DNA from: a virus
Virus record (IMG/VR): IMGVR_UViG_3300005095_000547
Location: 1-40,175 of that record
Reading direction: 5' to 3' (one strand)
Length of the DNA stretch: 40,175 nt
A program made the translations under genes and the position numbers. This document shows, piece after piece, positions 1,255 through 18,488 of the stretch (positions within the stretch are counted from its first letter, which is position 1; each line of letters opens with the position of its first letter). Under the pieces are notes generated by a model that did no database searches, had not been told where the DNA came from, and saw only the letters and a list, made by a program, of their open reading frames with translations.

Positions 1255-1283
1255 TAAACACACCAATTGGGAGGTTAGTTGCA

Positions 1284-1511
1284 ATGGTTGAAGTTGTGAT
1301 ACACGACCTGGGTTTGGCTGCTTTTCTTAGGGCCATCAAAGGTAAGAAGATGCTGGACAACCCGTACCGTGACGAGCACGGGCGGTTTTGCTTCAAGTTC
1401 CAGTTAGACAGCGAAGAGGAAAAGAAGCGGTTGGTGATGGAGTACTTCGATTCAGCGTTCCGCACGTTCGATCAGGAGGTGAAGGCTCTGAAGCGGGCCA
1501 TAACCCAGTAA
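1284..1511 (+). CDS. DUF5659-like small protein
   Basis: A 75-residue protein. ATG 1284 is chosen over earlier in-frame starts because GGGAGGT lies at 1268-1274. The pattern matches the small DUF5659 family known from phages and bacteria: an N-terminal DLGLAAFLRA segment, a short beta hairpin ending FCFKFQL, then a run of acidic and basic residues (SEEEKKRL) and a C-terminal helix (EVKALKRAI). The function of that family is unknown. It sits 29 bases after the receiver gene and 24 bases before the next gene. The family assignment rests on recalled pattern only. Confidence 0.6.
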   Translation: MVEVVIHDLGLAAFLRAIKGKKMLDNPYRDEHGRFCFKFQLDSEEEKKRLVMEYFDSAFRTFDQEVKALKRAITQ

Positions 1512-1535
1512 ACCACAGCAAGGTGGGGTGAAGCG

Positions 1536-2381
1536 ATGTTCATAGTTTACAACCGTTCGCGCGGTCGCGTTAGCCTCGACTCGCTGGGGAAGATCATACA
1601 CCCCGGGCGGTTCGTTGTGCTCGACAACCTCGAATACTCGGATGTCGTCCACGATGTCAAGGACCACCTCGACAGCGGAACCGTCTCGGTCATCTACGTA
1701 CCGCGCGACAACGACGTGATCGACCCCATCGAAATCGTCAAGGACCCGCTCTTCCAGCGGAGCGTGAAGAGTCGGGCCTTCCGCCGTCCGCCTCCGCCCG
1801 AGACGCTCAGGTACCGTGACCGGTTCCTGCTCTTCGAACCGCTCTACGGAGCGTGGGCCGGCCACGACCGCGAAATAGCCGAATGGCGTGACGGGCGTTG
1901 GTACTTCACGCGCCCGCAAGAAGGCATGATCGTTTGGGTGGAGGACGAAGAGAAGCCGTACCGCTTCGAGGCCGGTTCCTGGGAGCCGGCTGACATAACG
2001 TCGGACGCGACCGACGACTCCGCCCTGGCCGTCGTGGAGGTCACCACGCAACAGGAGATACCCCTGCACCGTGTCGTTACCAACGACGGTCGTTTGGCGG
2101 ACGCGTCCGACCCGACGCACGTCCGCAGGGCGCTGGGCGTGTCCCTCGAAGAGGTAACGATAGTCGGCAAACCGGTTCGCGTGCTCATTTCAGGGGCACT
2201 AGAACTGTCCTACGACCTCGACCCGGGGATCAACCTCGGGCCGGTGTTCTTGTGGTTCCAGGGAACCATTCGCGACGTATCCCCGAGCCCGCTCGACGGG
2301 GCCGTGTTCAGCCTGGTCGTGGGGCGGGCCGTGTCGCGCAACAAGATCTTCGTGGACCTGGAGCCCGGAGTTCTGTTCTAA
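1536..2381 (+). CDS. virion-associated protein with DUF2793-like segment
   Basis: A 281-residue protein with GGTGGGG upstream of ATG 1536. Around residues 98-152 there is a tryptophan-rich block with the order GAWAGH, IAEWRDGRWYF, EGMIVWVEDE, YRFEAGSWEP. This closely follows the DUF2793 pattern found in phage tail and gene-transfer-agent proteins. The C-terminal 90 residues are beta-rich (valine, glycine and aspartate turns) and resemble a decoration or fibre-type domain. Together these suggest a structural protein displayed on the virion, perhaps a fibre or head decoration. Its place ahead of the terminase rather than with the tail genes is unusual. The exact role is unknown. Confidence 0.55.
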   Translation: MFIVYNRSRGRVSLDSLGKIIHPGRFVVLDNLEYSDVVHDVKDHLDSGTVSVIYVPRDNDVIDPIEIVKDPLFQRSVKSRAFRRPPPPETLRYRDRFLLFEPLYGAWAGHDREIAEWRDGRWYFTRPQEGMIVWVEDEEKPYRFEAGSWEPADITSDATDDSALAVVEVTTQQEIPLHRVVTNDGRLADASDPTHVRRALGVSLEEVTIVGKPVRVLISGALELSYDLDPGINLGPVFLWFQGTIRDVSPSPLDGAVFSLVVGRAVSRNKIFVDLEPGVLF

Positions 2382-2405
2382 CTTACCACCAGGAGGTTCG
2401 TTACC

Positions 2406-2684
2406 ATGAGCGAAGAAAAGGTTTACCGCAACCCGTTTCGTGGCCGTTTGATTCTCACCACCGAAGAGGGCACCGTGCGCCTCGACCGCACGGCCCCCGA
2501 AGCGCGCTTCGTCACCGGTGACGCGGTGAAGGCCGAAGCCGTCCAGGACGAAGAGGTCAGGGACCTCGTGACGGAAAACGTGGAAGAAGAGGAAGACGTT
2601 CCGATCGTGGAAGAAGTATCCGTAGAGGAAGAGGCGGTAGAAGAGGAAACGGTTGACGAAGAAGACGACGTTGATGAGGAATAG
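2406..2684 (+). CDS. small protein with acidic C-terminal tail
   Basis: A 92-residue protein with AGGAGG at 2390-2395 ahead of ATG 2406. The first 45 residues are a mixed beta-type segment (RGRLILTTEEGTVRLD). The last 45 residues are nearly all glutamate, aspartate and valine, giving a very low isoelectric point. Acidic tails like this occur in head decoration or completion proteins and in DNA-mimic proteins, but no family is recognised. It lies 24 bases after the DUF2793-like gene and 5 bases before the next small gene, so it shares their transcript. Confidence 0.7.
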   Translation: MSEEKVYRNPFRGRLILTTEEGTVRLDRTAPEARFVTGDAVKAEAVQDEEVRDLVTENVEEEEDVPIVEEVSVEEEAVEEETVDEEDDVDEE

Positions 2685-2689
2685 CAGCC

Positions 2690-2896
2690 ATGCTCGGCTT
2701 ACTCATACTTGAAACCACCAGCGGTAGGCCGTACGTCGTCACCCAGGAGGACGGCGACAAGATGTACGCCGTCTCCATCGACGGTAAGCGGCTGCCGCTG
2801 GTCCTCTTTCGGGACGAACGTGGTCGTATAAAAGGCGCCGGTCGTCTCTACTTGATTTTGGGGGTTTCGGAGTTCATTTTGAGGGCAATGGTATGA
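2690..2896 (+). CDS. small hypothetical protein upstream of terminase
   Basis: A 68-residue protein predicted to be mostly beta strands (LLILETTSGRPYVV, KMYAVSIDGKRLPLVLF) with a hydrophobic C-terminus (LYLILGVSEFILRAMV). Its stop codon overlaps the terminase start by 4 bases (ATGA-type junction, 2893-2896), indicating translational coupling. Its position just before the large terminase subunit is where a small terminase subunit is often encoded, but 68 residues is short for one and no helix-turn-helix is visible. I therefore leave the function open. Confidence 0.65.
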   Translation: MLGLLILETTSGRPYVVTQEDGDKMYAVSIDGKRLPLVLFRDERGRIKGAGRLYLILGVSEFILRAMV

Positions 2897-4899
2897 TGCG
2901 GGAGAAGTCAGATCAACTGTTCAGTCCTGTTCAGCTCATCGAACAGGCGTTGCAAGCCGACCTGGACTTCGACCCGTCGCGGCTGATCGACGACCGCGAC
3001 TTCCCGCTGGCGGCCAACGTGGTCGAGTTCCTAACCGACCCGCGGTTCCTCAACTGGGAGCGTCCGTTCCCGCGCCAGATCCAGGTCGCCATGCACGCGT
3101 TCATGGACTACTGTCCGCTGTGCTCCAACCCGCGCTACGTGGACAACCTCTACGACCAGGACCTCGACGAAATCTTCGACAACATCGTCTTCCTGCGCTA
3201 CGGGATCTGTCCGCGGTGCGGTATGTCGCGGGCGCATCTCGTCGAGGCCGGGCTCTTCAAGGGTTGGATAAACGAGGTGGTGGGCGTGGCCGGGCAACGG
3301 TCCTCTAAGTCGTTCACCGTGGCGGTGCTTAGCCTTTACCTGTTGCACCGCTACCTCAAGTTGCCCACGGCCCCCTACCGCTTCTTCGGGTTGGCGCCGA
3401 CGCTGCTTCACCTCACGTTCGTCGCGCTGACCTACAAGCAGGCGGAGGAGAACCTCTGGGACCCGTTCATAGAGTGCTACTCGCTCTCGCCGTGGTTCCA
3501 GCAGTACAACGAAATGCTCCGCCAGTACGAGGCCAAGTTCGGGCGGAAGCTCGTCGATGTCAAAACGACTTACATTCTCTATCACCACAAGAACTTGACG
3601 GTTTACCCGTCCGGCCCGGACAAACGTAAGTTGCGTGGCCGTACACGCTTCGGCTACGCCATCGACGAGTTCGCCTACTTCGACTCGGCTCCCGATTCCA
3701 AGTCGGTGAAGTTCAGCGCTGAGGAGATCTACCAGGCACTCGAAAACTCGCTCGCCACGGTGCGGGCTGCCGTGGCCGACCGGCGCCGTGAGGGTTACTA
3801 CGACATCCCCGACGCTTACAGTTTTCTCATATCGTCGCCCACGTCAAAGAACGATCGTCTCATGCTCATGCTGCGTGAGGCAGATCGCGTCAAGTCGCGC
3901 TACGCGTTCCACTACGCGACGTGGGAGTTCAACCCGAAGATCAAGTTCGAGCACTTGCAGGAGTACTTCGAGAAGGACCCCATCAAAGCGCGACGCGACT
4001 TCGGGGCCGATCCACCCCTCAACGACACGCCGCTCATTTCCAACGTGTCGGCGATCAAGCGGATCTTCGGCAAGGTCAAGGGCGGTAACCTGTTCCGTCC
4101 GCGTCAGGTGGTCTCGAAGCAGTTCTGCTACGTCAAGGCCACCATCCGGCGACGCATCAACCGGCCCGTCGTCATCGGCATCGACGCCGGTTTGTCGTTC
4201 AACAGCTTCGCCTTGGTCGTGTTGTCCTTGTCCCCGAAGTCGTTCATCTTCGACGGGTTCCTCGAAGTCATCCCTTTGCGGGGTACCCAAGTCAACTTCG
4301 CCAAGATGCAGGCTCTCATCAAGCGGATTTGTGAGGTGCTCAAACCGCACGTGGTCGTAGCCGACCGGTGGAACTCTATCGCCTTGCTCCACGAACTCAT
4401 GGAAGAAGAGCTCGTGGACAACGCTCTGCAACGGTCGCCGACCTACAACCAGCTCCGCAACTTTGCCGGGGCCATTGTCGGTGGGACCGTTCGAGCACCG
4501 GACCTCGAAGACGGTGTTGATTTCCAGAAGCTAATGGACGCCGACTTCGAGTACCCGACATTCTTCTTGAACCGTCCGGTGGCGCATTTCGCCTACCAGC
4601 TCCTCACCGTACGCGACACCGGACGACGCATCGACAAGGGCCTCAACGCGACCGACGACTTGTTCCGGGCAGCGGCCATCGCGTACCTGGAAGCCGTGGA
4701 CTTGCTTGAGTCCAAGGACTTCTCCGAGCTGTTCGCCGGCGACGACACACCGCTCGTGCCGCGTAAGACGGCGCTGGGTACCGTCGTCCCCAAGTCGGCG
4801 TTCAGCGCGACGCGCGGACAGTCGTCCGTTCAACCTTCGACGGTGGTCCAGACGGGCAACAGGCCCCTGGGCATCGTCAAAACCAAGACCGGGAGGTAG
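2893..4899 (+). CDS. terL: terminase large subunit (packaging ATPase/nuclease)
   Basis: A 668-residue protein that pumps DNA into the prohead and cuts concatemers. The ATPase domain has a Walker A-like loop at about 131-140 (GVAGQRSSKS) and a Walker B with catalytic glutamate at D258-E259 (YAIDEF). The C-terminal RNase H-like nuclease has D431 (VIGIDAG), D491 (VVVADRW) and D588-D589 (ATDDLF) as likely metal ligands. An unusual CxxC pair set, C74/C77 and C106/C109, lies before the Walker A loop and probably forms a zinc ribbon. The start overlaps the preceding gene by 4 bases. No GC-rich break or intein is present. The assignment is strong; the packaging strategy cannot be told from the sequence. 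Confidence 0.93.
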   Translation: MMREKSDQLFSPVQLIEQALQADLDFDPSRLIDDRDFPLAANVVEFLTDPRFLNWERPFPRQIQVAMHAFMDYCPLCSNPRYVDNLYDQDLDEIFDNIVFLRYGICPRCGMSRAHLVEAGLFKGWINEVVGVAGQRSSKSFTVAVLSLYLLHRYLKLPTAPYRFFGLAPTLLHLTFVALTYKQAEENLWDPFIECYSLSPWFQQYNEMLRQYEAKFGRKLVDVKTTYILYHHKNLTVYPSGPDKRKLRGRTRFGYAIDEFAYFDSAPDSKSVKFSAEEIYQALENSLATVRAAVADRRREGYYDIPDAYSFLISSPTSKNDRLMLMLREADRVKSRYAFHYATWEFNPKIKFEHLQEYFEKDPIKARRDFGADPPLNDTPLISNVSAIKRIFGKVKGGNLFRPRQVVSKQFCYVKATIRRRINRPVVIGIDAGLSFNSFALVVLSLSPKSFIFDGFLEVIPLRGTQVNFAKMQALIKRICEVLKPHVVVADRWNSIALLHELMEEELVDNALQRSPTYNQLRNFAGAIVGGTVRAPDLEDGVDFQKLMDADFEYPTFFLNRPVAHFAYQLLTVRDTGRRIDKGLNATDDLFRAAAIAYLEAVDLLESKDFSELFAGDDTPLVPRKTALGTVVPKSAFSATRGQSSVQPSTVVQTGNRPLGIVKTKTGR

Positions 4900-4903
4900 T
4901 AGC

Positions 4904-5287
4904 GTGGTCACGATAGCTCACATTTTGAACCGGGCGCACGTGCCCGAACATCTGCGCGATCGGGCGCGCGAGCGCGTCATCATCGGTACGGGTAAGACCA
5001 AATTCGACGCTCACGAGGTCGAGCCTTTGGTCAGCGCCCTGCGCGAGTGGGTGGCGGAAGTCGAAGCCAAGGCCAGCCGCAAGAAGGCGAAAGCGAAGGC
5101 CAAGAAGGCGACCGCCGACGGCAACAAAGTGGCGGCGTCCGTCAAGTTCCGCTACGAGCACAAGCCCCGCGACTTCTTGCATTGCCCTATTTGCAAGCAG
5201 ACTATGGAGCAGGTGTTCTTGCGGGGGAGGCGCCCCGTGCGCTACTGCCCGCACCACCGCGTTGTCTTACCGATACCGGTGGACTAG
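4904..5287 (+). CDS. small basic zinc-finger protein
   Basis: A 127-residue protein. GTG 4904 is used because GGGAGGT lies at 4891-4897 and no ATG is suitably placed; it is 4 bases after the terminase stop. The middle is a lysine/alanine-rich helix (KASRKKAKAKAKKAT), likely to bind nucleic acid. The C-terminus has a CPIC...CPHH metal site, about 20 residues between the halves, typical of a small treble-clef or ribbon zinc finger. Its place between terminase and portal suggests a role in packaging or DNA end handling, but this is inference from context only. Confidence 0.75.
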   Translation: MVTIAHILNRAHVPEHLRDRARERVIIGTGKTKFDAHEVEPLVSALREWVAEVEAKASRKKAKAKAKKATADGNKVAASVKFRYEHKPRDFLHCPICKQTMEQVFLRGRRPVRYCPHHRVVLPIPVD

Positions 5288-5316
5288 AATGACAACAACG
5301 GTAGCGACAATGATGC

Positions 5317-5330
5317 GTTACGTTACGTTC
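5317..5330 (+). promoter_or_regulatory. GTTRCGTTC repeat motif, copy upstream of portal
   Basis: In the 65-base gap before the portal gene the sequence GTTACGTT occurs twice overlapping (5317-5324 and 5322-5330). It is the same 9-mer found ahead of the scaffold-like, capsid, sheath, tube and chaperone genes. It lies about 23-36 bases before ATG 5353 and just ahead of the ribosome site. A promoter element or protein-binding site is inferred from its repetition and intergenic position. Confidence 0.45.
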
Positions 5331-5352
5331 CCTTTAGAGAGGAGGGCCGTCT

Positions 5353-6795
5353 ATGTTCTTTAAATTGAACCGCATGATCTCCGCCGAGGTGGCGCAACAC
5401 GTGCGCGCCAACGTAGCCGACGCGCTGTCGGTTCGTGCCACCGCAACTAGCTACGATATGGTGTCGTTCTCGCGGACGAACGTCACCGAGGTGCGTAAGG
5501 AGGAGTGGGTACCGCGCGACAAGCGCGCCCGCCACGCCCTCTACCGCGAGATCTTCGAGTACGACACCGTAGCCGGTCCGGCGATCGAGCTTATCGCCAA
5601 CCTGCCGTTCTCGGAGTACACGCTAGTTGGTGTTGACGATCCGGCAGTCCTCCGGGTTTACGAGCAGTCGCTCGAAAACCTCAAGATCCTGGAGCTGCTC
5701 CCGGAGATCGTCCGGGAGATGTACATCATCGGCTACGTGGTCGTGTCCCTCATCTTCTCCGACGTGGAGGGCGTCTGGAAGGACGCCGTGGTGCACGACC
5801 CGGACAACATCGAGATAACGCCGCTACCCATCCACGGGTACGACCCGAAGTTCGACTTCGTGATCCCGAAGGAACTCCGGCAGTTCTTAACGTCCAAGGA
5901 CCCGCGTGACGTTGACGCGCGGTCGGTCATTCCGAAGGCGCTCCTCGAAAAGCTGCTCAAGTCGAAGCGGATACCGCTTGAGCCGCTCAACACGCTCTAC
6001 GTACCGCGTAAGGTGCGCCCGAACGACCTCGGCACGTCTTACTTGCGCCGCATCGTGCCCCTCTACATTCTGGAGAAAGAGCTCCTCGTGGGCACGATCG
6101 ACGCGTCCAAGCGGAGACAACGGTCCATCCTCCATATCACCGCCGGTATCCAGGACTACTGGGAACCGACGCCGGAGGAACTGCAAGCTCTGGCGGAGAT
6201 GTTCATACAGGCCGACGCCGATCCGCAGGGCGGCATCGTAGTGACGCGCTACGGTGTCGAGTCCAACGAAGTTCGGACCGCGACGGACTTCTGGCGCGTG
6301 TCCGAAGAGGAAGACTTTCTCGTGTCTGCCAAGTTGCGGTCCCTCGGCATCAACGAGGAGTTCCTATCCGGGTCGGCTACCTACTCCACGATGGAAGTCG
6401 CGCTCTCGGTTTTCATTGAGTTGCTTCGCTCGTTGCGTCAGGACATCACGCAGCGAGTGTTTTACGAGAAGCTCTTCCCCGTTCTGGCCAAGGTGCACGA
6501 GTTCTACGAGCGGTCCGAGGCCGACTTGAAGCACAACATTCGCACCACGAAGGGGCGCAAGCGGCTGTTGATCCCGAAAGTTCATTGGCACAAGCAGTTG
6601 CGGCCCGAGGCCGACACCGAGTACCTCAGCGTGCTCGAAACGGTGTCCGGTAAGGGTGTGCCCATCCCGCTCCGCACGTGGGCGGCGGCTGCCGGTCTCG
6701 ACCTAGACTCGATCCTCAAGAACCTGCCGGAGGACAAGAAGATCCGAGACGAGATCAAGAAGTACATGCCCGAAGAAAGCGGTGGAGGTTGGTAG
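5353..6795 (+). CDS. portal protein
   Basis: A 480-residue protein, a usual size for portals. It follows terminase and a zinc protein, and has the features of a portal: an early ARHALYREIFEYDTVAGPAIELIANL segment of helical wing, a mixed middle part with LNTLYVPRKVRPND and GTSYLRRIVPLYI, then an alternating helix and strand section (RQRSILHITAGIQD, GGIVVTRYGV) like the clip and stem. The C-terminus is charged. Portals form the dodecameric ring that joins head and tail and through which terminase drives DNA. ATG 5353 has GAGAGGAGG upstream. Identification rests on position and general pattern, not on a unique motif. Confidence 0.85.
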   Translation: MFFKLNRMISAEVAQHVRANVADALSVRATATSYDMVSFSRTNVTEVRKEEWVPRDKRARHALYREIFEYDTVAGPAIELIANLPFSEYTLVGVDDPAVLRVYEQSLENLKILELLPEIVREMYIIGYVVVSLIFSDVEGVWKDAVVHDPDNIEITPLPIHGYDPKFDFVIPKELRQFLTSKDPRDVDARSVIPKALLEKLLKSKRIPLEPLNTLYVPRKVRPNDLGTSYLRRIVPLYILEKELLVGTIDASKRRQRSILHITAGIQDYWEPTPEELQALAEMFIQADADPQGGIVVTRYGVESNEVRTATDFWRVSEEEDFLVSAKLRSLGINEEFLSGSATYSTMEVALSVFIELLRSLRQDITQRVFYEKLFPVLAKVHEFYERSEADLKHNIRTTKGRKRLLIPKVHWHKQLRPEADTEYLSVLETVSGKGVPIPLRTWAAAAGLDLDSILKNLPEDKKIRDEIKKYMPEESGGGW

Positions 6796-6797
6796 GC

Positions 6798-7223
6798 ATG
6801 ACGCGGTTGAAGACGGCGGTTATGTTCGCGCTGTTGTGGTTTGCGGTAACGTTGCCGTTTGCGGTGTTCGCGGAACGGGCGCACCGGCACACGGAGCCGT
6901 GGTACTCGCGTCGGTGGTGCGCGGTGCAGGGTGGTCTGGCCGAGTACACCCTGCCCGACGGCACGCGGGCCGATTGCGTCACGCCGTCGCTCGTGGTCGA
7001 GGTCGAGTGGGCGCACAAGTGGGCCGAGGCCGTCGGCCAGGCGCTCTACTACGCGACCTACTTCCCGTCGCGCCTCCCGGCTGTCGTTCTCCTCGTCGAG
7101 GACGACGACCCGGAAGCGGCGCGCCGTTACGAGCGGCGAGCGCGTGTGACCGTGCGGTCCTACAACTTGCCGGTGCAGATCTTAGTCGTTGACCCTTGCA
7201 CCTTGGAGGTGGACGCTCAATGA
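6798..7223 (+). CDS. predicted secreted PD-(D/E)XK nuclease-like protein
   Basis: A 141-residue protein beginning with a signal peptide (positive MTRLK, hydrophobic 8-20, likely cleavage after AVFA at residue 25). The remaining part follows a family of small exported bacterial proteins related to RecB/Holliday-resolvase nucleases: W40-C41 and a GGLAEY block, D59 (RADC), E68-V-E70 (VVEVEW), K74-W-AEAVGQALYYAT, then a hydrophobic strand (AVVLLVEDDD). D59, E68/E70 and K74 are candidate catalytic residues. It starts 2 bases after the portal stop and overlaps the next gene by 4 bases, so it is embedded in the structural operon. Activity is not proven; it may act in the periplasm on host or competitor DNA. 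Confidence 0.65.
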   Translation: MTRLKTAVMFALLWFAVTLPFAVFAERAHRHTEPWYSRRWCAVQGGLAEYTLPDGTRADCVTPSLVVEVEWAHKWAEAVGQALYYATYFPSRLPAVVLLVEDDDPEAARRYERRARVTVRSYNLPVQILVVDPCTLEVDAQ

Positions 7224-8689
7224 GGATACCCTACACCAAGCGGACCTACGAAGAGATCCGCGACGAGCTCATCCGTCAGATACCGGAGCTGTCGGACAAG
7301 TGGACCGACTTCAACCTGTCCGACCCCGGTATTCTCATGCTCGATGCCCTGGCGGCCATCGCCGATCTCTTGAACTTCTCCATCGACCGCAACATGGCGG
7401 AGTTCTTCGTCTCCACCATGACGCGGCGCACGTCCGCCGTGCGGTTGGGGTCGCTGGTCGGCTACCAGCTCCGTCGGCCTACCCCGGCCCTGGTGCTCGT
7501 GCGTTTCTCGGTTGACCAGCCCTGGCCCAACGACATTACCATCGGTCGGTGGACGGCCATCACCGCCGGCAACGTGCCGTTCCTCACGTTGACGGACGCC
7601 ACGTTGACCGCGGGTTCGACTTACGTGGACATCCCCTGCGCGCAACTCGAACGGGTCGTGTTGCGCGCCACGTCCAACGGTCAGCCCAACCAACGGTTCG
7701 AGCTCGGCGGTGACAACGAAGTGGCCGGTGACTTTTCCTGCCACCTCCTCGACCTCGACCTGGAGTTCAGGTCCTCCGAGGTGTACGTGGACGGTGAGCT
7801 GTGGGAGAAGGTTCAGTCGTTCATCGAGAACGCAGAGAACGCCTACATCGAGGAGGACAAGATCGAACGCGTTTACGTCACGTTCGGCGACGGAGTGTTC
7901 GGTCGCATACCGCCCGTCGGGGCCGACATCGAGATTTACTACTACAAGACCCTCGGTGCGGCGGGCAACTTACCGCGGGAGCAGATCGGCGGATCGCTCA
8001 CCTTGCCCGATGTTACCAACCGCCTCGTGGGCGTTCAGTACGCCGCCGTTGAAAACGCCACCGGCGGTGAGGACCGCGAGTCGTTAGAAGAGGCCCGACG
8101 CAACATCCCGAATTGGGTGCGCTACGTGGCCACGCTGACCACGCGCGACTCTTGGCGGGCTGCTATGGAGCAGTTCCCCGGTGTGCTCCTCGCCAACGCG
8201 TGGGGTGAGGAGCTGGAGAACCCGCCGAACTTCCGAATGTACAACGTCGTCAAGTACACGTTCGTTCCGGCCAACCCGGAGTGGACGAAACCGTCAGACG
8301 CGTTGCTCGAAGTCGTTCGCAACGAACTAGAAGCGCGTAAGGAGATCACGCTCCACCTGTTATACGTCGAGCCGGAGTTCGTCGAGCTCGACGTGAAGGT
8401 TGACGTGGTGGCCCTGCGCACGGCCTCCGCTTCCGTGGTGGAGAACGCCGTGCGGTCGCGTTTGCTTCAAATGTTCAAGTGGGGCGCCTACGACTTCAAC
8501 GCCACGGTCCACCACTCCGACATCGTGCGGGTCGTGGAGGAAACTCCGGGCGTCTCGCATTGCTTCGTAGGCATCAAGTGCCCCGCCAAGGGCATCGGTT
8601 TGGAGGATTACGAGTGCGCCGACGTGGCCCTGGACCTCCACGAACTGCCCAAGCTCGGCGAGCTCATCGTCTCCGCCACAACCGCCTAA
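7220..8689 (+). CDS. baseplate wedge protein, T4 gp6 / P2 gpJ-like
   Basis: A 489-residue protein. The N-terminus carries the sequence pattern of baseplate J/gp6-type proteins: a helix ending in a DFNLSDPGI turn, then MLDALAAIADLLNFSIDRN. The middle has VYVTFGDGVFGRIPP, another strongly conserved block of this family, and LGAAGNLP. The C-terminus is alpha/beta and repetitive, as in gp6. Such proteins form the ring of baseplate wedges that reorganise when the sheath contracts. The true start is ATG 7220, overlapping the previous stop by 4 bases. Its position between portal and protease genes is unusual, because the rest of the baseplate is encoded 15 kb downstream. Confidence 0.85.
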   Translation: MRIPYTKRTYEEIRDELIRQIPELSDKWTDFNLSDPGILMLDALAAIADLLNFSIDRNMAEFFVSTMTRRTSAVRLGSLVGYQLRRPTPALVLVRFSVDQPWPNDITIGRWTAITAGNVPFLTLTDATLTAGSTYVDIPCAQLERVVLRATSNGQPNQRFELGGDNEVAGDFSCHLLDLDLEFRSSEVYVDGELWEKVQSFIENAENAYIEEDKIERVYVTFGDGVFGRIPPVGADIEIYYYKTLGAAGNLPREQIGGSLTLPDVTNRLVGVQYAAVENATGGEDRESLEEARRNIPNWVRYVATLTTRDSWRAAMEQFPGVLLANAWGEELENPPNFRMYNVVKYTFVPANPEWTKPSDALLEVVRNELEARKEITLHLLYVEPEFVELDVKVDVVALRTASASVVENAVRSRLLQMFKWGAYDFNATVHHSDIVRVVEETPGVSHCFVGIKCPAKGIGLEDYECADVALDLHELPKLGELIVSATTA

Positions 8690-8714
8690 AACTGCGGCCC
8701 CGCGCCGGTTTCAG

Positions 8715-8772
8715 GCCCTTCTCAACCGCCCCAGCGCAATATTTTTATATGGGAGAAGGGCACAATTGCGCT
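8715..8772 (+). promoter_or_regulatory. interleaved inverted repeats (possible pseudoknot or RNA switch) in protease leader
   Basis: Stem 1 is GCCCTTCTC (8715-8723) with GAGAAGGGC (8753-8761), 9 perfect pairs. Stem 2 is AGCGCAAT (8733-8740) with ATTGCGCT (8765-8772), 8 perfect pairs. The 5' arm of stem 2 lies in the loop of stem 1, so both together would be an H-type pseudoknot, or the two stems may be alternatives. The AT-rich loop (8741-8750) stands out in this GC-rich DNA and could also be a promoter element. The ribosome site AGGAGG follows at 8777-8782. Confidence 0.6.
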
Positions 8773-8790
8773 CACCAGGAGGTTTTTGAC

Positions 8791-9468
8791 ATGAGGTTCG
8801 TGAAAGGAGAGGTGGCCCTGGCCCAACGCCTGCCGCGGAGCCACGTTACCGTGGCCAGCGCGGACTCTTTGCAGGTGGGCCGGAAGCCGCTGGACATTTC
8901 GTGGTTGAAGCTGGCCGCGCCGGCTTACAAGATCTCGCCCGACATCAACGATTACGTGCTGGCGCGCGTGCCCGTGGTTACGTCGGACCTGCCCAACAGG
9001 AATTTGCAGGCTTTCTCCTACGAGGAGCTCGTTTTCTTCTCCCCGATCTTCGGTCGGCCCACGTACAAGACCTTCGTGGGTAAGCCCGTGCACGTTGAGC
9101 ACCAGAACGAGGACCCGACGCAGGCCCGTGGGGTCATCTTCGATGCGGTCATGGTCCCCGTGCCCCGCTACCAGGTTTACAAGGTCGTTATCCTGGTAGG
9201 CGTGGACCGCACCAAGGACCCGGCCCTGGCGCGGGAGGTCGAGCGCGGGGAAAGCGCCTGGTCGATGGGCGCACTCGTCAACAACTTCCAATGCTCGGTG
9301 TGTGGGGCAAACGTGACCCAGTACCTCTGCGACTGTATGAGCAACGTCGGCAAAGGCGGTCTCGTTGACCGTCAGCTCGTTTACGAGCTCTGTGTCGATG
9401 TCAACTACATAGAAGTTTCCGCCGTATCCGACCCCGCCGACGTGACGGCGTGGGGCGATCTCCTCTAA
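8791..9468 (+). CDS. prohead maturation protease
   Basis: A 225-residue protein with AGGAGG at 8777-8782 ahead of ATG 8791. It follows the phage prohead (S78/U9-type) protease pattern: an N-terminal strand region (DYVLARVPVVTSD), then TFVGKPVHVEH with the candidate catalytic histidine (H101 or H104), GVIFDAVMV, the candidate catalytic serine in GESAWSMGALV (S155 or S158), and a C-terminal YIEVSAVSDPA block like the conserved ELSxVxxPA of the family. A CSVC...CDC cluster (C168, C171, C180, C182) is inserted after the serine and may bind zinc, which is unusual. It would cleave scaffold and capsid proteins during head maturation. It lies just upstream of scaffold-like and capsid genes, as expected. 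Confidence 0.78.
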   Translation: MRFVKGEVALAQRLPRSHVTVASADSLQVGRKPLDISWLKLAAPAYKISPDINDYVLARVPVVTSDLPNRNLQAFSYEELVFFSPIFGRPTYKTFVGKPVHVEHQNEDPTQARGVIFDAVMVPVPRYQVYKVVILVGVDRTKDPALAREVERGESAWSMGALVNNFQCSVCGANVTQYLCDCMSNVGKGGLVDRQLVYELCVDVNYIEVSAVSDPADVTAWGDLL

Positions 9469-9490
9469 CGCTCTTTTCTCACCCGAAGAC

Positions 9491-9499
9491 GTTACGTTC
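9491..9499 (+). promoter_or_regulatory. GTTRCGTTC repeat motif upstream of scaffold-like gene
   Basis: Exact GTTACGTTC in the 66-base gap between protease and scaffold-like genes, 44 bases before ATG 9535 and about 22 bases before the GGAGG ribosome site. Same motif as the copies at 5322, 11551, 14450, 17698 and 30431. Confidence 0.45.
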
Positions 9500-9534
9500 C
9501 CGCGAAGAAAGAAAACACTATGGAGGTTAAAACC

Positions 9535-10734
9535 ATGCAGCACTATTACGGCTTGCCCCCAGAGGAGGGGTTCTCCTACGGGCAGTACCTTTGCCCTTCC
9601 TGCGGTCTCCAGTTCATCTCCAATCGTGGGCAGGAAATGTACTGCCCCGTTTGCGCCACCGAGGTGAACTTCGTGCAGGACGTGGCCGAGTCCGAGATCC
9701 CTTCCGGCATTCGTGAGGTAGGAAAGTGCACCGCTTGCACTTCCATTCTCGCTACTTCCGCTCCCGACGTTCCCAACCCCGTGTACTGCCCGCAATGCGG
9801 GTCCACGGTGGACACCTCTGCTGAGGCCGTGTCCCAGCAGAACGAGCCCGCCCCCGAACTCGCTGAGGACCTCGGCGGGGAGGGTTCCCTGTCGGTGGCG
9901 GAGTTCCTCTCCGTGCCGGATGAGGACGTGGCCGGCGCTCCTTCCGAAGCCGAAATCGTGATGACGTTCCACCGTTGCCCCAAGCGCGGTCCGTTCTGGA
10001 ACGTGATCGTGAACGGCCAGCCTATGGGCCGTATCTATCTCCAGGACCAGCCGGCTCCGCAGGAGATCGAGCCGATCTTCGTGTCCGAACAGTACCCGCA
10101 GATGTTCCGCCAGGCCGCGGCCAAGTTCGGACTCAAGCAGGCCCTGGCGTCCGTCAACGCGCGCCTCTACGCCGTTGACGAGAACAAGGTACGGGCTCAC
10201 GTCGAGGAAGAGATCCGCAAGCAGTACGAAGAGAAGTTCCAGAAGCGGGTGCTCCACCTCACCGACGAGTTCAAGGAAGCCGTGGCCATCGCCCTCGAAG
10301 GTATGGCCAAGAACTTCTTCCAGGACGTGGAAAACCCGCTCAAGGCGGCTCTCTTCAACGAGCTCGTGCGGGCCGGTGTCGAAGAGCCTACCCGCTACAT
10401 CGAAGCCGCTTTCGAGCGCGCTGCTCAGCCCTTCTTCGAGAAGGTGCTGGCCAAGGCGTTCGAGCTGATGGCCAAGCCGGAAGAGGTACGTGCGGAGATC
10501 GCGCGCCTCATCAAGGCCGCCGGTCCCGTACCCGTGCAGCCCGCTGCTACCGCGCCGCAGCCGTCCCCGGCTACGGCGTCCGCTGCTGAGGACATCGACA
10601 CCAGCGAACTCAAACAGCGTCTCGTAAAGGGCAACTTCATCCTGGCCACTCCGCAGTCCGAGGCCACGACCGCTTCTGCGCACTCTCCCTCGGACATCAA
10701 GGAGGCCCTGCGTGGTCTCTTCCGTCGCCACTAA
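9535..10734 (+). CDS. zinc-ribbon, helix-rich scaffold-like protein
   Basis: A 399-residue protein. ATG 9535 is preferred to the in-frame ATG 9520 because GGAGGTT lies between them at ribosome-site distance. The N-terminus has two zinc ribbons: CPSC/CPVC in residues 20-42 and CTAC/CPQC in 65-90. A low-complexity acidic linker follows. The rest is alpha-helical and charged (VRAHVEEEIRKQYEEKFQKR, then AFERAAQPFFEKVLAKAFEL), with a proline/alanine linker and a basic C-terminus. Position between protease and capsid genes is the classical place for the head scaffold, and charged helices with a basic C-terminus fit. The double zinc ribbon is not typical of scaffolds, so the role is inferred mainly from context. 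Confidence 0.6.
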   Translation: MQHYYGLPPEEGFSYGQYLCPSCGLQFISNRGQEMYCPVCATEVNFVQDVAESEIPSGIREVGKCTACTSILATSAPDVPNPVYCPQCGSTVDTSAEAVSQQNEPAPELAEDLGGEGSLSVAEFLSVPDEDVAGAPSEAEIVMTFHRCPKRGPFWNVIVNGQPMGRIYLQDQPAPQEIEPIFVSEQYPQMFRQAAAKFGLKQALASVNARLYAVDENKVRAHVEEEIRKQYEEKFQKRVLHLTDEFKEAVAIALEGMAKNFFQDVENPLKAALFNELVRAGVEEPTRYIEAAFERAAQPFFEKVLAKAFELMAKPEEVRAEIARLIKAAGPVPVQPAATAPQPSPATASAAEDIDTSELKQRLVKGNFILATPQSEATTASAHSPSDIKEALRGLFRRH

Positions 10735-10755
10735 ACCGGCACCTAGCGCCACGCT

Positions 10756-10793
10756 GTTGCCGTTCTCAATAACGACACAAACCTTTAGGAGGT
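10756..10793 (+). promoter_or_regulatory. decoration-gene leader with variant motif and extended ribosome site
   Basis: GTTGCCGTTC at 10756-10765 is a one-base-longer variant of the GTTRCGTTC motif. Near the start codon, ACCTTTAGGAGG (10782-10793) matches the extended ribosome-site leaders before the capsid gene (ACCTTCAGAGGAGG, 11575-11588) and first tube gene (ACCTTCAGGAGG, 16646-16657). The shared leader precedes genes for very abundant virion proteins, which suggests selection for strong translation. Confidence 0.4.
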
Positions 10794-10800
10794 AAGACCA

Positions 10801-11487
10801 ATGATAGATCTTTCCAAAGTTATCGCTCCTGTTATCCTCGAAAAGCCGGTGGCTACCGGTTATGCCTGCGACACCGAGGGCGCCGCTCTCGTCTCCGTCC
10901 TCGAAGATGGTGTCGAGAAGGTTAAGCCTTCCGCCGGCGAGTCCGGCGAGAAGTTCGTCGGCTTTTGCATGGTGCGCTCCGCGGCCATCGAGTACGTTCC
11001 CGTAGTCGAAGAGGCCGTGGTTCCTTCCAGCGATCCGTACACCGTGCAGCTCAAGCACAACAACCTCGTTGAGAACGAGATCCGCGTTTACAGCATCGAC
11101 GACGGGTCCGATCTCACCAAGGACTCCGACTACACCGTTGACTTCACCAACGGTATCGTAACCTTCCAGTCCAGCGCTGCTGGTAAGAACGTGCGCATCT
11201 TCTACCGTTACAGCCCCACCGTGGCCGAGGTCAAGGCTACCTACTTTGAGGAAGCCACCGGCACCAACGCCGGTGCTGTGTGGGGCCGCACGGCGGTCAT
11301 CATCCCGCCCTGCGAGATCTACACCACCGAGTACGACGTGACTGTTGACTGGTCCAACGCTTCCGAGATCCGCCTCGGACCCAACGGTCGTCTTACGACC
11401 AGCGGTTCCGGTACGGTCATCCCCGGCGCTCGCGTCATCGCCGTACCGTCCGTTGACAGTCCTTATCTCGGTATCGCCATCAGCTAA
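10801..11487 (+). CDS. putative capsid decoration/cement protein
   Basis: A 228-residue protein immediately upstream of the major capsid gene. The N-terminal 60 residues (VATGYACDTEGAALVSVLEDG, then GFCMVRS) resemble head decoration proteins of the DUF2190/cement type. A central beta domain at about 75-140 has the DSDYTVDFTNGIVTF and RIFYRYSP blocks also seen in the domains inserted in the tail sheath of this phage. The C-terminus is a beta barrel-like segment. It has a strong AGGAGG and its own transcription signals: the leader motif upstream and a hairpin terminator at 11499-11525. The role is inferred from position and pattern. Confidence 0.6.
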   Translation: MIDLSKVIAPVILEKPVATGYACDTEGAALVSVLEDGVEKVKPSAGESGEKFVGFCMVRSAAIEYVPVVEEAVVPSSDPYTVQLKHNNLVENEIRVYSIDDGSDLTKDSDYTVDFTNGIVTFQSSAAGKNVRIFYRYSPTVAEVKATYFEEATGTNAGAVWGRTAVIIPPCEIYTTEYDVTVDWSNASEIRLGPNGRLTTSGSGTVIPGARVIAVPSVDSPYLGIAIS

Positions 11488-11498
11488 ACCGTAGCGTG

Positions 11499-11525
11499 AA
11501 CAACCGGGGCGCGTTCCCGGTTGTT
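11499..11525 (+). terminator. rho-independent-like terminator after decoration gene
   Basis: AACAACCGGG (11499-11508) pairs perfectly with CCCGGTTGTT (11516-11525) around a 7-base loop. It lies 11 bases after the stop codon and is followed by a mixed T-containing stretch (TGCGCTTTC), so termination may be partial. It would separate decoration and capsid transcripts. Confidence 0.65.
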
Positions 11526-11550
11526 TGCGCTTTCCCGTCAACGCCCTGAC

Positions 11551-11559
11551 GTTGCGTTC
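11551..11559 (+). promoter_or_regulatory. GTTRCGTTC repeat motif upstream of major capsid gene
   Basis: Exact GTTGCGTTC, 47 bases before ATG 11598, between the hairpin at 11499-11525 and the extended ribosome site. The order terminator, motif, ribosome site is what a promoter for the capsid gene would require. Confidence 0.5.
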
Positions 11560-11597
11560 CGCGTTCTCGAATTAAACCTTCAGAGGAGGAAACAGAT

Positions 11598-12671
11598 ATG
11601 CTTAACCCCTATGCTGCTCGTTTCGTAACCGCTTCCGGTGAGCCGGTCTCCGAGTTCAAGTACAAAGGCTCCAAGGTTATCGACGAGAAGACGGGCGAGA
11701 TCAATGCCCATGACAAGAAGGAAGCCATTCAGCAGATCGGTCGCCTCATTAGCGCTGCGGCCAGCGGTGAGATCCGCCGTGATCGCGGCGCCGACGAGGC
11801 CAGCGTTCGCGAACTCGTTATCGCTGCTCTCAACGATCCCACCGGCCAGGCCATGAAGGTGGTCGGTGAAGTCATGGCCGAAGAAATCAGCATTGCGATG
11901 GACCGTGAGGGATTCGCCCGTCGCATCCTTGCCATCAAGGACCTCGAACAGGGCGAAGTTCCCCGCATCCCCGTCCGCCGCAAGGACGTGATGGGTTGGA
12001 TGATGACCCAGGATGCCCGTACGCCTGTTTCCATCGTTCGGCAGGCGTACGTGACCCTGGAAGAGTTCTACCTCACCGCCAACATCCAGATCGAGGCGCG
12101 TGAACTCGCCAGCTCTCCGGTGGACCTTCTCGACGAGAAGTACGCCGAGGGCTTGGAGCAGATCATGGTGGCCGAAGACCGCGCCTTCAAGGTGCTCAGC
12201 GACAAGGCCGCCAGCACCTCTAACGAGATCGTGTACTTCAACACCTTCACCCCGGCGGTGTTCGCCGATCTGCGCCAGCAGATCGCCAACTGGAACCTGC
12301 CGGTGGTGGCCGCGGTGATCGCCAGCGACATCTGGAACGACATCATCGCGTCCCCTGACTTTTCCAACTGGTTCGATCCCGTAACCAAGTACAACCTCAT
12401 CCTTGAGGGCAAGCTTGGTTCCATCCTCGGGATCGAGCTCATCACCGACGCGTTCCGCGAGGAGCGCCTCCGGGTGCTCAACCCCGGTGAAGTTTACTTC
12501 TTCACCGCTCCGAAGCACCTCGGTGTGATCGCCCGTCGGCAGGATGTAACCTCCAAGCCGACCGATGGCGCCCAGGAAGGCCGTCCTTACCAAGGGTGGT
12601 ACCTCTACGCCATCGAGGGTATGGCCGTGGTCAACAGCCGCGGTGTTACCAAGGGTCAGCGCATCGCGTAA
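11598..12671 (+). CDS. major capsid protein (HK97-fold type)
   Basis: A 357-residue protein with AGAGGAGG upstream of ATG 11598. The order of segments fits HK97-type capsid proteins of myoviruses: a helical N-arm (IQQIGRLISAAASGEI), an extended loop-like region with basic residues (PRIPVRRKDVMGW), a spine helix (DLLDEKYAEGLEQIMVAEDR), a P-domain strand and helix (FADLRQQIANWNLPVVAAVI, DIWNDIIA), then GILGIEL-like and VYFFTAPKHLGVIARRQDV strands near the C-terminus. The gene follows protease and scaffold-like genes, is bounded by hairpins on both sides, and almost lacks rare codons, as expected for the most abundant virion protein. The N-terminal 60 residues could be removed by the protease; no cleavage site can be stated. 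Confidence 0.85.
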   Translation: MLNPYAARFVTASGEPVSEFKYKGSKVIDEKTGEINAHDKKEAIQQIGRLISAAASGEIRRDRGADEASVRELVIAALNDPTGQAMKVVGEVMAEEISIAMDREGFARRILAIKDLEQGEVPRIPVRRKDVMGWMMTQDARTPVSIVRQAYVTLEEFYLTANIQIEARELASSPVDLLDEKYAEGLEQIMVAEDRAFKVLSDKAASTSNEIVYFNTFTPAVFADLRQQIANWNLPVVAAVIASDIWNDIIASPDFSNWFDPVTKYNLILEGKLGSILGIELITDAFREERLRVLNPGEVYFFTAPKHLGVIARRQDVTSKPTDGAQEGRPYQGWYLYAIEGMAVVNSRGVTKGQRIA

Positions 12672-12696
12672 GCGGTAGTTCTCCTAATTGAAGTGG

Positions 12697-12719
12697 CGGC
12701 GGGGCTCGGCGCCCCGCCG
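12697..12719 (+). terminator. GC-rich hairpin after major capsid gene
   Basis: CGGCGGGGC (12697-12705) pairs with GCCCCGCCG (12711-12719) around TCGGC, 9 perfect pairs. It starts 26 bases after the capsid stop. It is followed by ATTAAAATATC rather than a T-run, so it may act as an attenuator or protect the 3' end of the capsid mRNA instead of terminating fully. Confidence 0.55.
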
Positions 12720-12745
12720 ATTAAAATATCGTGGAGGTTACACGT

Positions 12746-13462
12746 ATGGATAAGAAAACGATTCTTGAGCGGTTCGAGCTGGCCGCTTCCCTTTATAAGA
12801 GGGGCTACAAGGCCATCGCTTCTTCGCTCGTACTCGGCTCTCTCGAAGAGGCCGTACAGGGCGGAGAGGCCGATGACGACTCCAAGACCGCCCCTCAGCG
12901 CGGTGCCGAGAAGAAAGAAGGCGCCGACGTAATCGAGACCGTGGCCTCGCTCCTGAAGGAGCGCGGTTTTGACGACCTCGCCCGTGAGCTCGAAGCCGTC
13001 GCCGCTGCCGAAGGTGAAGGCAAAGAGGGCGACACCGGTAGCGACGATGACGAAGAGTTCGACATCGACATTGATGTCTCCCTCGATGACGAGGACGAGG
13101 ACGACCTCGACCTCGGCGACGAGGAAGAAGAGGGTGAGGGCGAAGAAGATGAGGACCTCGACCTCGGCGACGAGGAAGAGGAGGAAGAAGAGGACATGAG
13201 CGGCGAAGGCGAAGGCGACGAGGGTGAGGGCGAAGAGGAGGAAGACATCAGCCTCGACGACCTCCTCGACGAAGAGGAAGAGGAGGGCGAAGAGGACGAA
13301 GGCGGCGAGGAGGAAGACGAAGAAGAGGACATCCTCCCCGAGGACGTGAAAGCGTCCGTCGCCCGCCGTCTCCGTGGCCTCGCCAACCGTCTCGCCTCTT
13401 ATAACGACCCCAAACTGCGGAAACACGGTCGGCGCATTCTCGCGTTGGCCAAGACCCTTTAG
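12746..13462 (+). CDS. highly acidic Asp/Glu-repeat protein
   Basis: A 238-residue protein; ATG 12746 is chosen over GTG 12731 because GGAGG lies at 12733-12737. Residues 1-90 are helical (ERFELAASLYKRGYKAIASSL; VIETVASLLKERGFDDLARELEAVAA). Residues 100-200 are almost only aspartate, glutamate and glycine with imperfect repeats of DLDLGDEEEE. The C-terminus is a basic helix (ASVARRLRGLANRLA; RKHGRRILALAKTL). A charged, helical protein beside the capsid gene might be an internal head protein, a second scaffold or a DNA mimic. It has its own hairpin terminator. No family is recognised. Confidence 0.75.
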   Translation: MDKKTILERFELAASLYKRGYKAIASSLVLGSLEEAVQGGEADDDSKTAPQRGAEKKEGADVIETVASLLKERGFDDLARELEAVAAAEGEGKEGDTGSDDDEEFDIDIDVSLDDEDEDDLDLGDEEEEGEGEEDEDLDLGDEEEEEEEDMSGEGEGDEGEGEEEEDISLDDLLDEEEEEGEEDEGGEEEDEEEDILPEDVKASVARRLRGLANRLASYNDPKLRKHGRRILALAKTL

Positions 13463-13481
13463 GGCGAGTAATGAGGAGTGG

Positions 13482-13503
13482 GCCGGGCGGTAACCCGCCC
13501 GGC
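13482..13503 (+). terminator. rho-independent-like terminator after acidic gene
   Basis: GCCGGGCGG (13482-13490) pairs with CCGCCCGGC (13495-13503) around a TAAC tetraloop, 9 perfect pairs, 19 bases after the stop. The next bases (TTCACTTGTTTGCTCTTT) are T-rich. Confidence 0.7.
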
Positions 13504-13547
13504 TTCACTTGTTTGCTCTTTAAGTTAGAAGGTGGGGTGTTGCCGTT

Positions 13548-14213
13548 ATGATGGAAATTTACTCCGGTTTTGTGATTGACTGGACCCGGAAGACTTTGGA
13601 GGCGGCGTTACCGCCAGATGTTTACAAGCGGTGTCCGGTTGTTTACAGTCACTCTCAGTCCCTCGACAGCAAGATCGTCAAGGAACGGTACCAGTCGCCC
13701 GAGGAAGAGCACAAGCGTCCGTTGATCCCCTTCGCCGCCGTTCAGCAAACCCCGCCACCCACACTCTTACCACGTGCACAGCCAAACCAGCCGGGATTCA
13801 TTCTAGCCAAGCGCTACAAAGAAGAGGGCAAGTTTACCGGCGCTCCGGCGGTGTTCGCTGCCATCCCCTACCAGATCCGGTTTTACCTGGAGAGCGAGCC
13901 CCAGCGTTTCGGTGTAGTCGAGACCATTCTTCTCAACACACCGCATCAGGGTTCGTACGGGTCGGTGCGCGTTTGGTTCCTAGAAGACATGGCCGTCGTG
14001 GTTGGGTACACGATCGAATCTATCGACTACCCACGCGAACTCGACTCCGGGACCGTAGAAGAAATGCAAGTGCACCAGCTTTTAGTCACTTTGCGTCTTG
14101 AGGCGCCGGTCATCGGCAAACCGTTCCCCGGTGTTCTCATGACACGACCGGTCATTGTTTACGAAGCGGGTGGGATCATCGAGGACATCCGCATTGAATA
14201 TGAGGGAGGTTAA
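13548..14213 (+). CDS. putative neck or tail terminator protein
   Basis: A 221-residue protein between the acidic gene and the sheath. It has a proline-rich middle (VQQTPPPTLLPRAQPNQPG) and a beta-rich C-terminal half (YGSVRVWFLEDMAVVVGY, VHQLLVTLRLEAPVIG). In contractile phages the genes between capsid and sheath usually encode head completion, neck and tail terminator proteins, and the size fits. No diagnostic motif is visible, so the assignment is by position. It starts at ATG 13548, with a second ATG at once after it, after AAGGTGGGG. The next gene follows after 5 bases. Confidence 0.5.
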   Translation: MMEIYSGFVIDWTRKTLEAALPPDVYKRCPVVYSHSQSLDSKIVKERYQSPEEEHKRPLIPFAAVQQTPPPTLLPRAQPNQPGFILAKRYKEEGKFTGAPAVFAAIPYQIRFYLESEPQRFGVVETILLNTPHQGSYGSVRVWFLEDMAVVVGYTIESIDYPRELDSGTVEEMQVHQLLVTLRLEAPVIGKPFPGVLMTRPVIVYEAGGIIEDIRIEYEGG

Positions 14214-14218
14214 CGACT

Positions 14219-14401
14219 ATGGCCACCATCCGTTACAAGAACGTGTCAAAGCAGGCCATACAAGTCATGACGGTGCAGAACCGCAAGCGTGAGCTCATCC
14301 TTGTGCCGTCTGACCAGGAATTTACCAGCGAGCGTGAAACGGCTCACATCAAGAACATGCTCGCCGCGAAGATGGTCAAGCGTATCTCTGACCAGCAGTA
14401 G
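14219..14401 (+). CDS. small basic hypothetical protein
   Basis: A 60-residue protein with GGGAGG ahead of ATG 14219. It has beta-strand character at the start (ATIRYKNVSKQAIQVMTVQN) and a helical end (TAHIKNMLAAKMVKRI). It lies between the neck candidate and the sheath, where small neck or tail completion proteins are often found. I do not recognise it. Confidence 0.7.
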   Translation: MATIRYKNVSKQAIQVMTVQNRKRELILVPSDQEFTSERETAHIKNMLAAKMVKRISDQQ

Positions 14402-14449
14402 CAAAACGCGTGACCGTCCTCCTGTTTGACCCCGCGCCGTTCCGTTGGT

Positions 14450-14458
14450 GTTGCGTTC
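14450..14458 (+). promoter_or_regulatory. GTTRCGTTC repeat motif upstream of tail sheath gene
   Basis: Exact GTTGCGTTC in the 82-base gap before the sheath, 34 bases before ATG 14484. Near-copies CCGTTCCGTT lie just upstream at 14437-14446. Confidence 0.45.
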
Positions 14459-14483
14459 GTACTCCCTTCGCAGGAGGATAAAT

Positions 14484-16559
14484 ATGTTTCCTGTATCTCC
14501 CGGTGTTTATTGGAGAGAGAAAGATCTGTCCCAGTACGTGCCCGCGTTAGCTACTACGACTGCGGCCTTCGTTATCACCGCGACCAAGGGTCCGGTGAAC
14601 GAGCGCCGTTACATCTCCACCGCTGAAGAGTTCGTAACGGTGTTCGGGCCACCGCACCCTGACCATATCGGCACCTACGCGTGCCTCCAGTACCTCCGCG
14701 ACGGTAAGTCGCTTTGGGTGGTTCGTGTCGAAAGCGGCATGAACCCCGCTACCACGGCGACTGCCGTGCTCAACGACAACTCCGGTACGCCGGTGTTCAA
14801 CGTGGAATCCGTTGATCCCGGCTCTTTCTACAACAACGTGAGCATCGAAGTCGAGCGCGAGCAGCCCAAGGTGGTCTCCGATGCCACCGCCGTCGAGAAC
14901 GTCGATCCCGTGGACATGGGTCCCGAAACCGTAGGCACCGCCGACGGCGTGGCTCGCGTGTTCGACTACACCGTTGCCGCCGGTCACGCGATCCCCGGTA
15001 CGGTGACCGTGAGCACTAGTAGCGTTTCCTTGACCGACGACGGGGCCGGCAACCTGACCGGTTCCGGCGGTAGCGGTACCGTGGACTACGCCACCGGTAA
15101 CATCCACGTGGAGTTCGATTCTTCCCCGGACGACGGGGACGACCCCCAGGTTACTTACCAGGCCAACCCGAACAGCGTGGACTTTGCGCTGCCGCAAAAG
15201 CCTGTGGTTCCGCAGTCGGTCATATTGGAAGTTGACGTGAACGGCGGGACGTTGGTGCAGGTGAAGGACGACGGTAACGGTAACCTCTCCGACGCCGACG
15301 GCATCGTCACCGGCGTCATCGACTACGATACCGGAACCGGAACGATAAGCACCACGTACCCGAACTACATAACCGCCGGGACTGCGGTGTGGGCTGACTT
15401 CTCCTACTACATGTCGTTCGCCATCTACGTGTGGTACCGCAACCCGGCCAAGAACTCCGAGATCACGCTCGAAGGGTTCCACAACTTGTCGATGGACCCC
15501 GAGAGCCCGTACTACGCGAAGAAGATAGTCAACACCAGCTCGAAGCACATCCGCATCGAGGAGACCGGTAACCCCAACACGCCGGCCAACGGTCGCGTGG
15601 CGCTCGCCGGTGGTTCCGACGGCCTCGACGGCATCAACGCCAGCGACTACGTGGGTACCGTGATCGGCAACGTGAAGACCGGTCTCCAGCTCTTCCGCAA
15701 CTCCGAAGAGCTCGACCTCAACATCCTGGCCGTGCCCGGGATCACCTACCCCGGCGTCACGTTCGAGCTCGTGGACATCGTGCACGAGCGTCGTGACTGC
15801 ATGTGCCTGCCGGACACCCCGCAGGCGTTGTCCAAGGAGATGGTGATCGACTGGATCAACGGTACGGGGCTGTGGGAGGAGTACCCGGGCCTCAACACCA
15901 GCTACGCTGCGGTTTACTGGCCTTGGGTCAAGATCCTCGACCCCTACAACCCGTTGCCTGACGGCCAGGATCGTTACGTGTTCATCCCGCCCAGCGGTTG
16001 CGCGGCGGGCATCTACGCCCGCAACGATATGATGGCGGAAGTCTGGTACGGTCCGGCGGGTTCCAACCGCGGTATCATTTACAACGCGGAGGGCACCGAG
16101 GTCCCCGTGTCGCAGGGCGACCGTGACCTCATCTACCCGAACCGTATCAACCCGATCGTGGACTTCCCCAAGGAAGGCGTGATGATCTACGGTGAGCGCA
16201 CCACGCAGGTCGCGCCTTCCGCCCTCGATCGGGTCAACGTCCGTCGTCTTCTCATCTACATCGAGAAGGCGATTTCGACGGCCTGTCGCCCGTTGCTGTT
16301 CGAGCCGAACACGCCGACGTTGTGGCGTCGGTTCAACATGATCGTTGATCCGATCCTGCGGTCCCTCAAGGCGCGTGAAGCGCTCTACGATTACCGGGTG
16401 GTTTGCGACGAGTCCACCAACACCCCGGATGTCATTGACCGCAACGAGATGCGGGCGACGATCATGCTCAAGCCCGTGAAGACCGCGGAGGCCATCGTAC
16501 TCACGTTCGCGTTGCTCCCGACCGGAGCGAACTTCGACGAGTACGTTGGCACCATCTAA
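14484..16559 (+). CDS. tail sheath protein
   Basis: A 691-residue protein. ATG 14484 is preferred to the in-frame upstream start because AGGAGG lies at 14472-14477 and the sheath family begins with VSPGVYWREKDLS. It has the typical N-terminal pattern (TAAFVITATKGPVNE, EEFVTVFGPP, LQYLRDGKSLWVVRV) and the C-terminal domain (VNVRRLLIYIEKAI, FEPNTPTLWRRF, VIDRNEMRATIMLKPVKTAEAIVLTF). It polymerises around the tube and contracts on infection. Residues about 172-308 hold two inserted, mutually similar beta domains (DDGAGNLTG and DDGNGNLSD blocks, each followed by a GT/GV-x-DYxTG turn), likely on the outside of the sheath. It is followed by a hairpin. Confidence 0.92.
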   Translation: MFPVSPGVYWREKDLSQYVPALATTTAAFVITATKGPVNERRYISTAEEFVTVFGPPHPDHIGTYACLQYLRDGKSLWVVRVESGMNPATTATAVLNDNSGTPVFNVESVDPGSFYNNVSIEVEREQPKVVSDATAVENVDPVDMGPETVGTADGVARVFDYTVAAGHAIPGTVTVSTSSVSLTDDGAGNLTGSGGSGTVDYATGNIHVEFDSSPDDGDDPQVTYQANPNSVDFALPQKPVVPQSVILEVDVNGGTLVQVKDDGNGNLSDADGIVTGVIDYDTGTGTISTTYPNYITAGTAVWADFSYYMSFAIYVWYRNPAKNSEITLEGFHNLSMDPESPYYAKKIVNTSSKHIRIEETGNPNTPANGRVALAGGSDGLDGINASDYVGTVIGNVKTGLQLFRNSEELDLNILAVPGITYPGVTFELVDIVHERRDCMCLPDTPQALSKEMVIDWINGTGLWEEYPGLNTSYAAVYWPWVKILDPYNPLPDGQDRYVFIPPSGCAAGIYARNDMMAEVWYGPAGSNRGIIYNAEGTEVPVSQGDRDLIYPNRINPIVDFPKEGVMIYGERTTQVAPSALDRVNVRRLLIYIEKAISTACRPLLFEPNTPTLWRRFNMIVDPILRSLKAREALYDYRVVCDESTNTPDVIDRNEMRATIMLKPVKTAEAIVLTFALLPTGANFDEYVGTI

Positions 16560-16572
16560 TAAGACTGAACCG

Positions 16573-16597: not shown

Positions 16598-16621
16598 TCG
16601 TAGTCACACCCCTGCCGTTCT

Positions 16622-16630: not shown

Positions 16631-16663
16631 TGTTCACACCCTTAGACCTTCAGGAGGTGTGAC

Positions 16664-18484: not shown

Positions 18485-18488
18485 GGAG

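Follow-up and report, generated by a model that had tools for sequence, protein, structure and literature searches.

The gap in front of the prohead protease gene of this virus carries two perfect inverted repeats that interlock. Our preferred reading, in which we have modest confidence, is that they belong to an mRNA hairpin between cistrons, which might also fold into a loose pseudoknot; predicted structure is frequent in the gaps of this module. We infer that transcription passes through the gap between the baseplate J-like gene and the protease gene, and that the transcript is structured there. The first repeat (S1) would close a hairpin whose large loop is rich in A and U, and pairing of the second (S2) may turn it into a loose pseudoknot without coaxial stacking. 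The structure would most likely serve to set the protease ribosome site apart from the cistron before it and to protect or delimit a segment of the transcript, as hairpins in other gaps of the module may do.

Two interlocking inverted repeats in the protease gene leader

The window, as we use the term, is the whole stretch of DNA analysed, a virus record of 40,175 bases. On its + strand, the baseplate J-like gene (7220–8689; PF04865, E = 2.3e-13; phrog_219, baseplate wedge) is followed by the gap that forms the leader of the protease gene (8690–8790), extending from the stop at 8689 to the ATG at 8791. The arms of S1, GCCCTTCTC (8715–8723) and GAGAAGGGC (8753–8761), are perfectly complementary over 9 bp and close a loop of 29 nt. 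The 5′ arm of S2, AGCGCAAT (8733–8740), lies within this loop and is the perfect complement of ATTGCGCT (8765–8772), giving 8 bp. The preliminary description had therefore been exact in claiming perfect, interlocked stems of 9 and 8 pairs, and its AT-rich loop is equally real: AATATTTTTATAT (8738–8750) is the longest A/T run in the window and the only one of 13 bases. The two stems leave loops of 9 nt (8724–8732), 12 nt (8741–8752) and 3 nt (8762–8764). After the end of S2 come CACC (8773–8776) and then the Shine-Dalgarno sequence (SD) AGGAGG (8777–8782), just where a ribosome site had been proposed, 4 bases beyond the stems. The SD thus lies outside both S1 and S2, in agreement with the hairpin reading, and the ATG follows the end of the would-be knot at a distance of 18 nt. 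The product of the gene itself (8791–9468, + strand, 225 aa) has no Pfam match, and its similarity to head maturation proteases (phrog_18299, E = 4.2e-54) bears out its earlier naming as a prohead protease. On the − strand, a 939-aa open frame (8722–11541) lies opposite the genes for the protease, the scaffold and the decoration protein; it probably just shadows the GC-rich coding sequence of the other strand.

Expectation by chance and fold stability

Chance is a conceivable if rather doubtful explanation: in a GC-rich phage window searched for oddities, two inverted repeats under no selection might interlock by accident. Among 100,000 dinucleotide shuffles of 8690–8790, any 9-bp stem arose in 1,230 and interlocked stems of 9 and 8 bp in 13, which speaks against chance and for the hairpin reading. 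At the scale of the whole window, however, such an interlocked pair appeared somewhere in 6 of 60 second-order Markov windows, a frequency that argues the other way on both counts. Short-range inverted repeats of 9 bp are also abundant across the window in general (35 vs a Markov mean of 13). The interlocked stems are unusual for one gap of such composition, less so for a 40-kb window. Against chance, the repeats adjoin a ribosome site, and the 58 other sources that we compared yielded a single second case, which derives from a direct-repeat tract in L027 (59 sources and 515 kb with the window included; duplicates L001, L014 and L015 excluded).

Folding of the whole gap favours chance over the hairpin reading, since the 101-nt gap is not stabler than its shuffles (z −0.08), and neither is the 111-nt leader in a plain nested fold (z +0.89 vs its own shuffles). 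The S1 hairpin alone, with a trimming chosen post hoc, reaches z −2.51. Within the nested ensemble S1 is predicted to dominate, with a cost of 0.09 kcal/mol for forcing S1 and 2.9 for forcing S2, as the hairpin reading would have it.

Feasibility of a pseudoknot

A pseudoknot, proposed earlier as a possibility, appears possible by both geometry and rough energy. In a rigid-helix model with idealised A-form helices (6 Å per step; all placements begun within 26 Å of the lower end of S1), 392,485 of 1,103,386 placements passed the steric test and closed all three loops, and S2 could be accommodated at the lower end of S1 or next to it. In the classical form, with S2 stacked on S1, a distance of about 26 Å or more would have to be bridged by the third loop, whose reach is 24 Å. 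The doubt raised in the preliminary description over the 3-base loop is thus justified for the coaxial form, which is not closable in this model, but does not extend to a non-coaxial knot. Stacking summed over both helices amounts to −34.3 kcal/mol vs −17.7 for the nested fold of 8715–8772; by this rough estimate, which is not a pseudoknot calculation, the knot would be favoured over the nested fold if the total loop penalty stayed below 16.6 kcal/mol. S2 could accordingly add to S1, in line with the hairpin reading.

Predicted structure in other gaps of the module

Among 12 gaps of the window that were folded, four others were structured below z −2.5, namely those before the MCP gene (−2.57), 12746 (−2.85), 13548 (−3.29) and 16664, the tube gene (−2.76). 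Those before MCP, 12746 and 13548 hold perfect hairpins with loops of 4–7 nt. By these predictions structure between genes is common in the module, which favours the hairpin reading; S1 may therefore be the form that it takes in the protease gap, albeit with a far larger loop, a disparity that counts against the same reading.

Two further features of the module deserve mention. Tandem genes at 16664–17164 and 17145–17678 both belong to tail tube families (phrog_45, E = 1.6e-27 and 6.5e-13). The sequence GTT[A/G]CGTT(C) recurs in + strand gene leaders (5317–5330, 9491, 11551, 14450, 17698 and 30431); all five exact copies of GTTACGTT fall inside 60-nt upstream regions (22 starts tested), and two of these copies overlap in front of the portal gene. 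Judged from this placement, it is possibly a regulatory or promoter motif of the phage.

Relatives and conservation

No close relatives were found in phage, viral contig or genome contig searches, and the records nearest to the window may be absent from them. A blastn search with 8400–9700 against phages gave no match, and viral contig searches with the protease and with the terminase returned no relatives. Viral contigs yielded three loci with MCP (the same three with an MCP alignment), two with a protease alignment and one, L061, with the baseplate gene, which is itself the only one of 10 tested genes to match there. The protease alignment also retrieved one locus among genome contigs, L016, which ends about 0.1 kb short of the gene, and a plasmid search gave one weak match.

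The nearest relatives, L002 and L003, have proteases that are 50% and 49% identical to that of the window. In L002 a gap of 70 nt separates the portal gene from the protease gene behind it; in L003 the portal gene is followed by an extra small gene and then, after 2 nt, by the protease gene. Sequence alignment with these two remote loci shows S2 to be largely missing from both. Of the 9 pairs of S1, 5 and 6 survive in the respective pairwise alignments; as 9 of 60 shuffles do equally well for each locus, the apparent retention of S1 is no better than chance. Both observations favour chance and weigh against the hairpin reading. In the alignment of all three sequences, four pairs of S1 and S2 are changed on both sides; as 32 of 500 shuffles match this, we do not count the changes as covariation.

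L002 and L003 do share a conserved noncoding segment of 52 columns directly after the portal gene (L002 3801–3870, L003 3678–3740), whose score of 50 was reached by none of 3000 shuffles. Its fold has z −3.52 in L003 and +0.67 in L002, and RNAalifold found no shared pairs between the two. The AT run of the window was considered as its counterpart, and the match was not significant; a seven-pair consensus obtained after adding the window was dropped, resting as it did on U runs set against A/G runs. Best local matches of the window to the gaps of L002 and L003 were not significant either (p 0.18 and 0.40), with 148 and 289 of 3206 window tiles scoring just as well. The two loci also show strong conservation of the gap before MCP (L002 7847–8000, L003 7900–8000), in which 9-nt repeats of the AGTCTTAC type stand in tandem. 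Their portal genes (L003 294–3677, L002 48–3800) contain intein and LAGLIDADG domains (PF14890, PF14528); the PF14890 match is below the curated cut-off in L003 and comprises two stretches in L002.

Phages with a related protease mostly leave little room for such a leader. Among 15 annotated phages picked from 305 records with a match, 14 have a gap of at most 53 nt before the protease gene as annotated, and in three of these 14 the protease gene overlaps the preceding one; a leader like this one is therefore not a general trait of such proteases. In Vibrio phage GR11A, 326 nt precede the protease gene and hold no interlocked 9+8 pair. Portal regions in which no protease showed were kept out of this count. 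Rfam gave no match at gathering score in the window; its four matches within 8600–8900, at E up to 5, all score far below their gathering scores. DNA pattern searches returned nine stretches for S1 with a gap of 25–35 and 26 for GAGAAGGGC near ATTGCGCT. None of these 35 stretches combines S1 with the S2 3′ arm, and none encodes relatives of the window's head proteins; four of them (L005–L008) encode a remote relative of the tail sheath.

Possible control of the ribosome site

The preliminary description had suggested an RNA switch acting on protease translation, and this suggestion found no support. The stems leave the SD uncovered, and they barely change its accessibility: its predicted mean unpaired probability is 0.41 in the free leader, 0.38 with S1 and 0.33 with S2, and it rises to 0.64 in the knot. 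In these predictions no two states were found of which one opens the SD and the other hides it. Among the 15 gene starts compared, a set in which the sheath start was placed 3 nt off, only two are more open than the SD region of the protease gene (0.44). As modelled, the ribosome site is clearly hidden in no state and would be exposed by the knot; S1 and S2 are, on this evidence, not a self-contained switch that hides it, and any repression would need a bound protein. Nor is a homologous leader conserved, and relatives of the protease mostly lack room for one. In a scan of 28 gene starts for upstream complements of the SD region, three were positive, each with a perfect 8-nt complement: those of the sheath gene (14417–14424/14471–14478, loop 46 nt, shuffle p 0.004), the tube gene (16603–16610/16656–16663, loop 45 nt, shuffle p 0.014) and the gene at 22569 (22510–22517/22560–22567, loop 42 nt, p 0.012). 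These resemble ribosome-site locks more closely than the protease leader does.

A pseudoknot operator, to which a phage protein (the protease, the scaffold or another) would bind and so block ribosome entry in the manner of T4 gene 32, whose own product binds its operator and represses translation, seems unlikely. The topology, geometry and rough energy described above would allow the knot, and its end only 4 nt before the SD would suit such a role; however, the knot alone would free the SD rather than hide it, no conservation was seen, no Rfam family matches, and the short gaps in 14 of the 15 annotated relatives hardly accommodate an operator of this kind.

Quite improbable is a promoter with the AT run as a −10-like element and the repeats flanking it as a palindromic operator, as had alternatively been proposed: the run is the sole one of its length and the protease gap lacks the GTT[A/G]CGTT of several other gaps, so that the gene might start differently, but a scan of 1–20000 for sigma-70-type promoters (two hexamers, at least 9/12) found no such site there, the arms form no paired sites elsewhere in the window (the S1 arm has no exact recurrence, the S2 arm one lone copy at 20116), and the matches to the L002 and L003 gaps, equalled by many window tiles, are not significant.

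Comparison with known systems

The translational operator of T4-type gene 32 is a pseudoknot in the leader mRNA (PMC3014915). Its stems stack coaxially, as seen by NMR for phage T2; they lie 67 nt before the start, and downstream of them an unstructured, A+U-rich tract covers the ribosome site (PMC3014915). The protease leader shares with it a pair of interlocked stems that precede a phage gene's start codon. It differs in three respects: coaxial stacking of S2 on S1 is not closable in our model, the knot would end 18 nt before the ATG, and no A+U-rich tract extends from the knot to the SD. It is very unlikely, in our estimate, that a non-coaxial pseudoknot serves here as the operator through which a head protein times prohead protease synthesis, a second kind besides gene 32. 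If the knot did work as an operator, it would illustrate how a phage can delay its protease until prohead assembly is done. In the literature searches, no title retrieved pointed to a prohead protease gene with a structured leader. The case shows that a striking repeat can be real, with a function that becomes testable once close relatives or transcripts exist.

Phage structural operons can carry intercistronic hairpins, and the hairpin reading places the protease gap among them. Unlike the gaps before MCP, 12746, 13548 and 16664, that gap is not stabler than its shuffles, and whereas three of these four use hairpins with loops of 4–7 nt, its S1 closes 29 nt. Like them, it would place RNA structure between structural genes.
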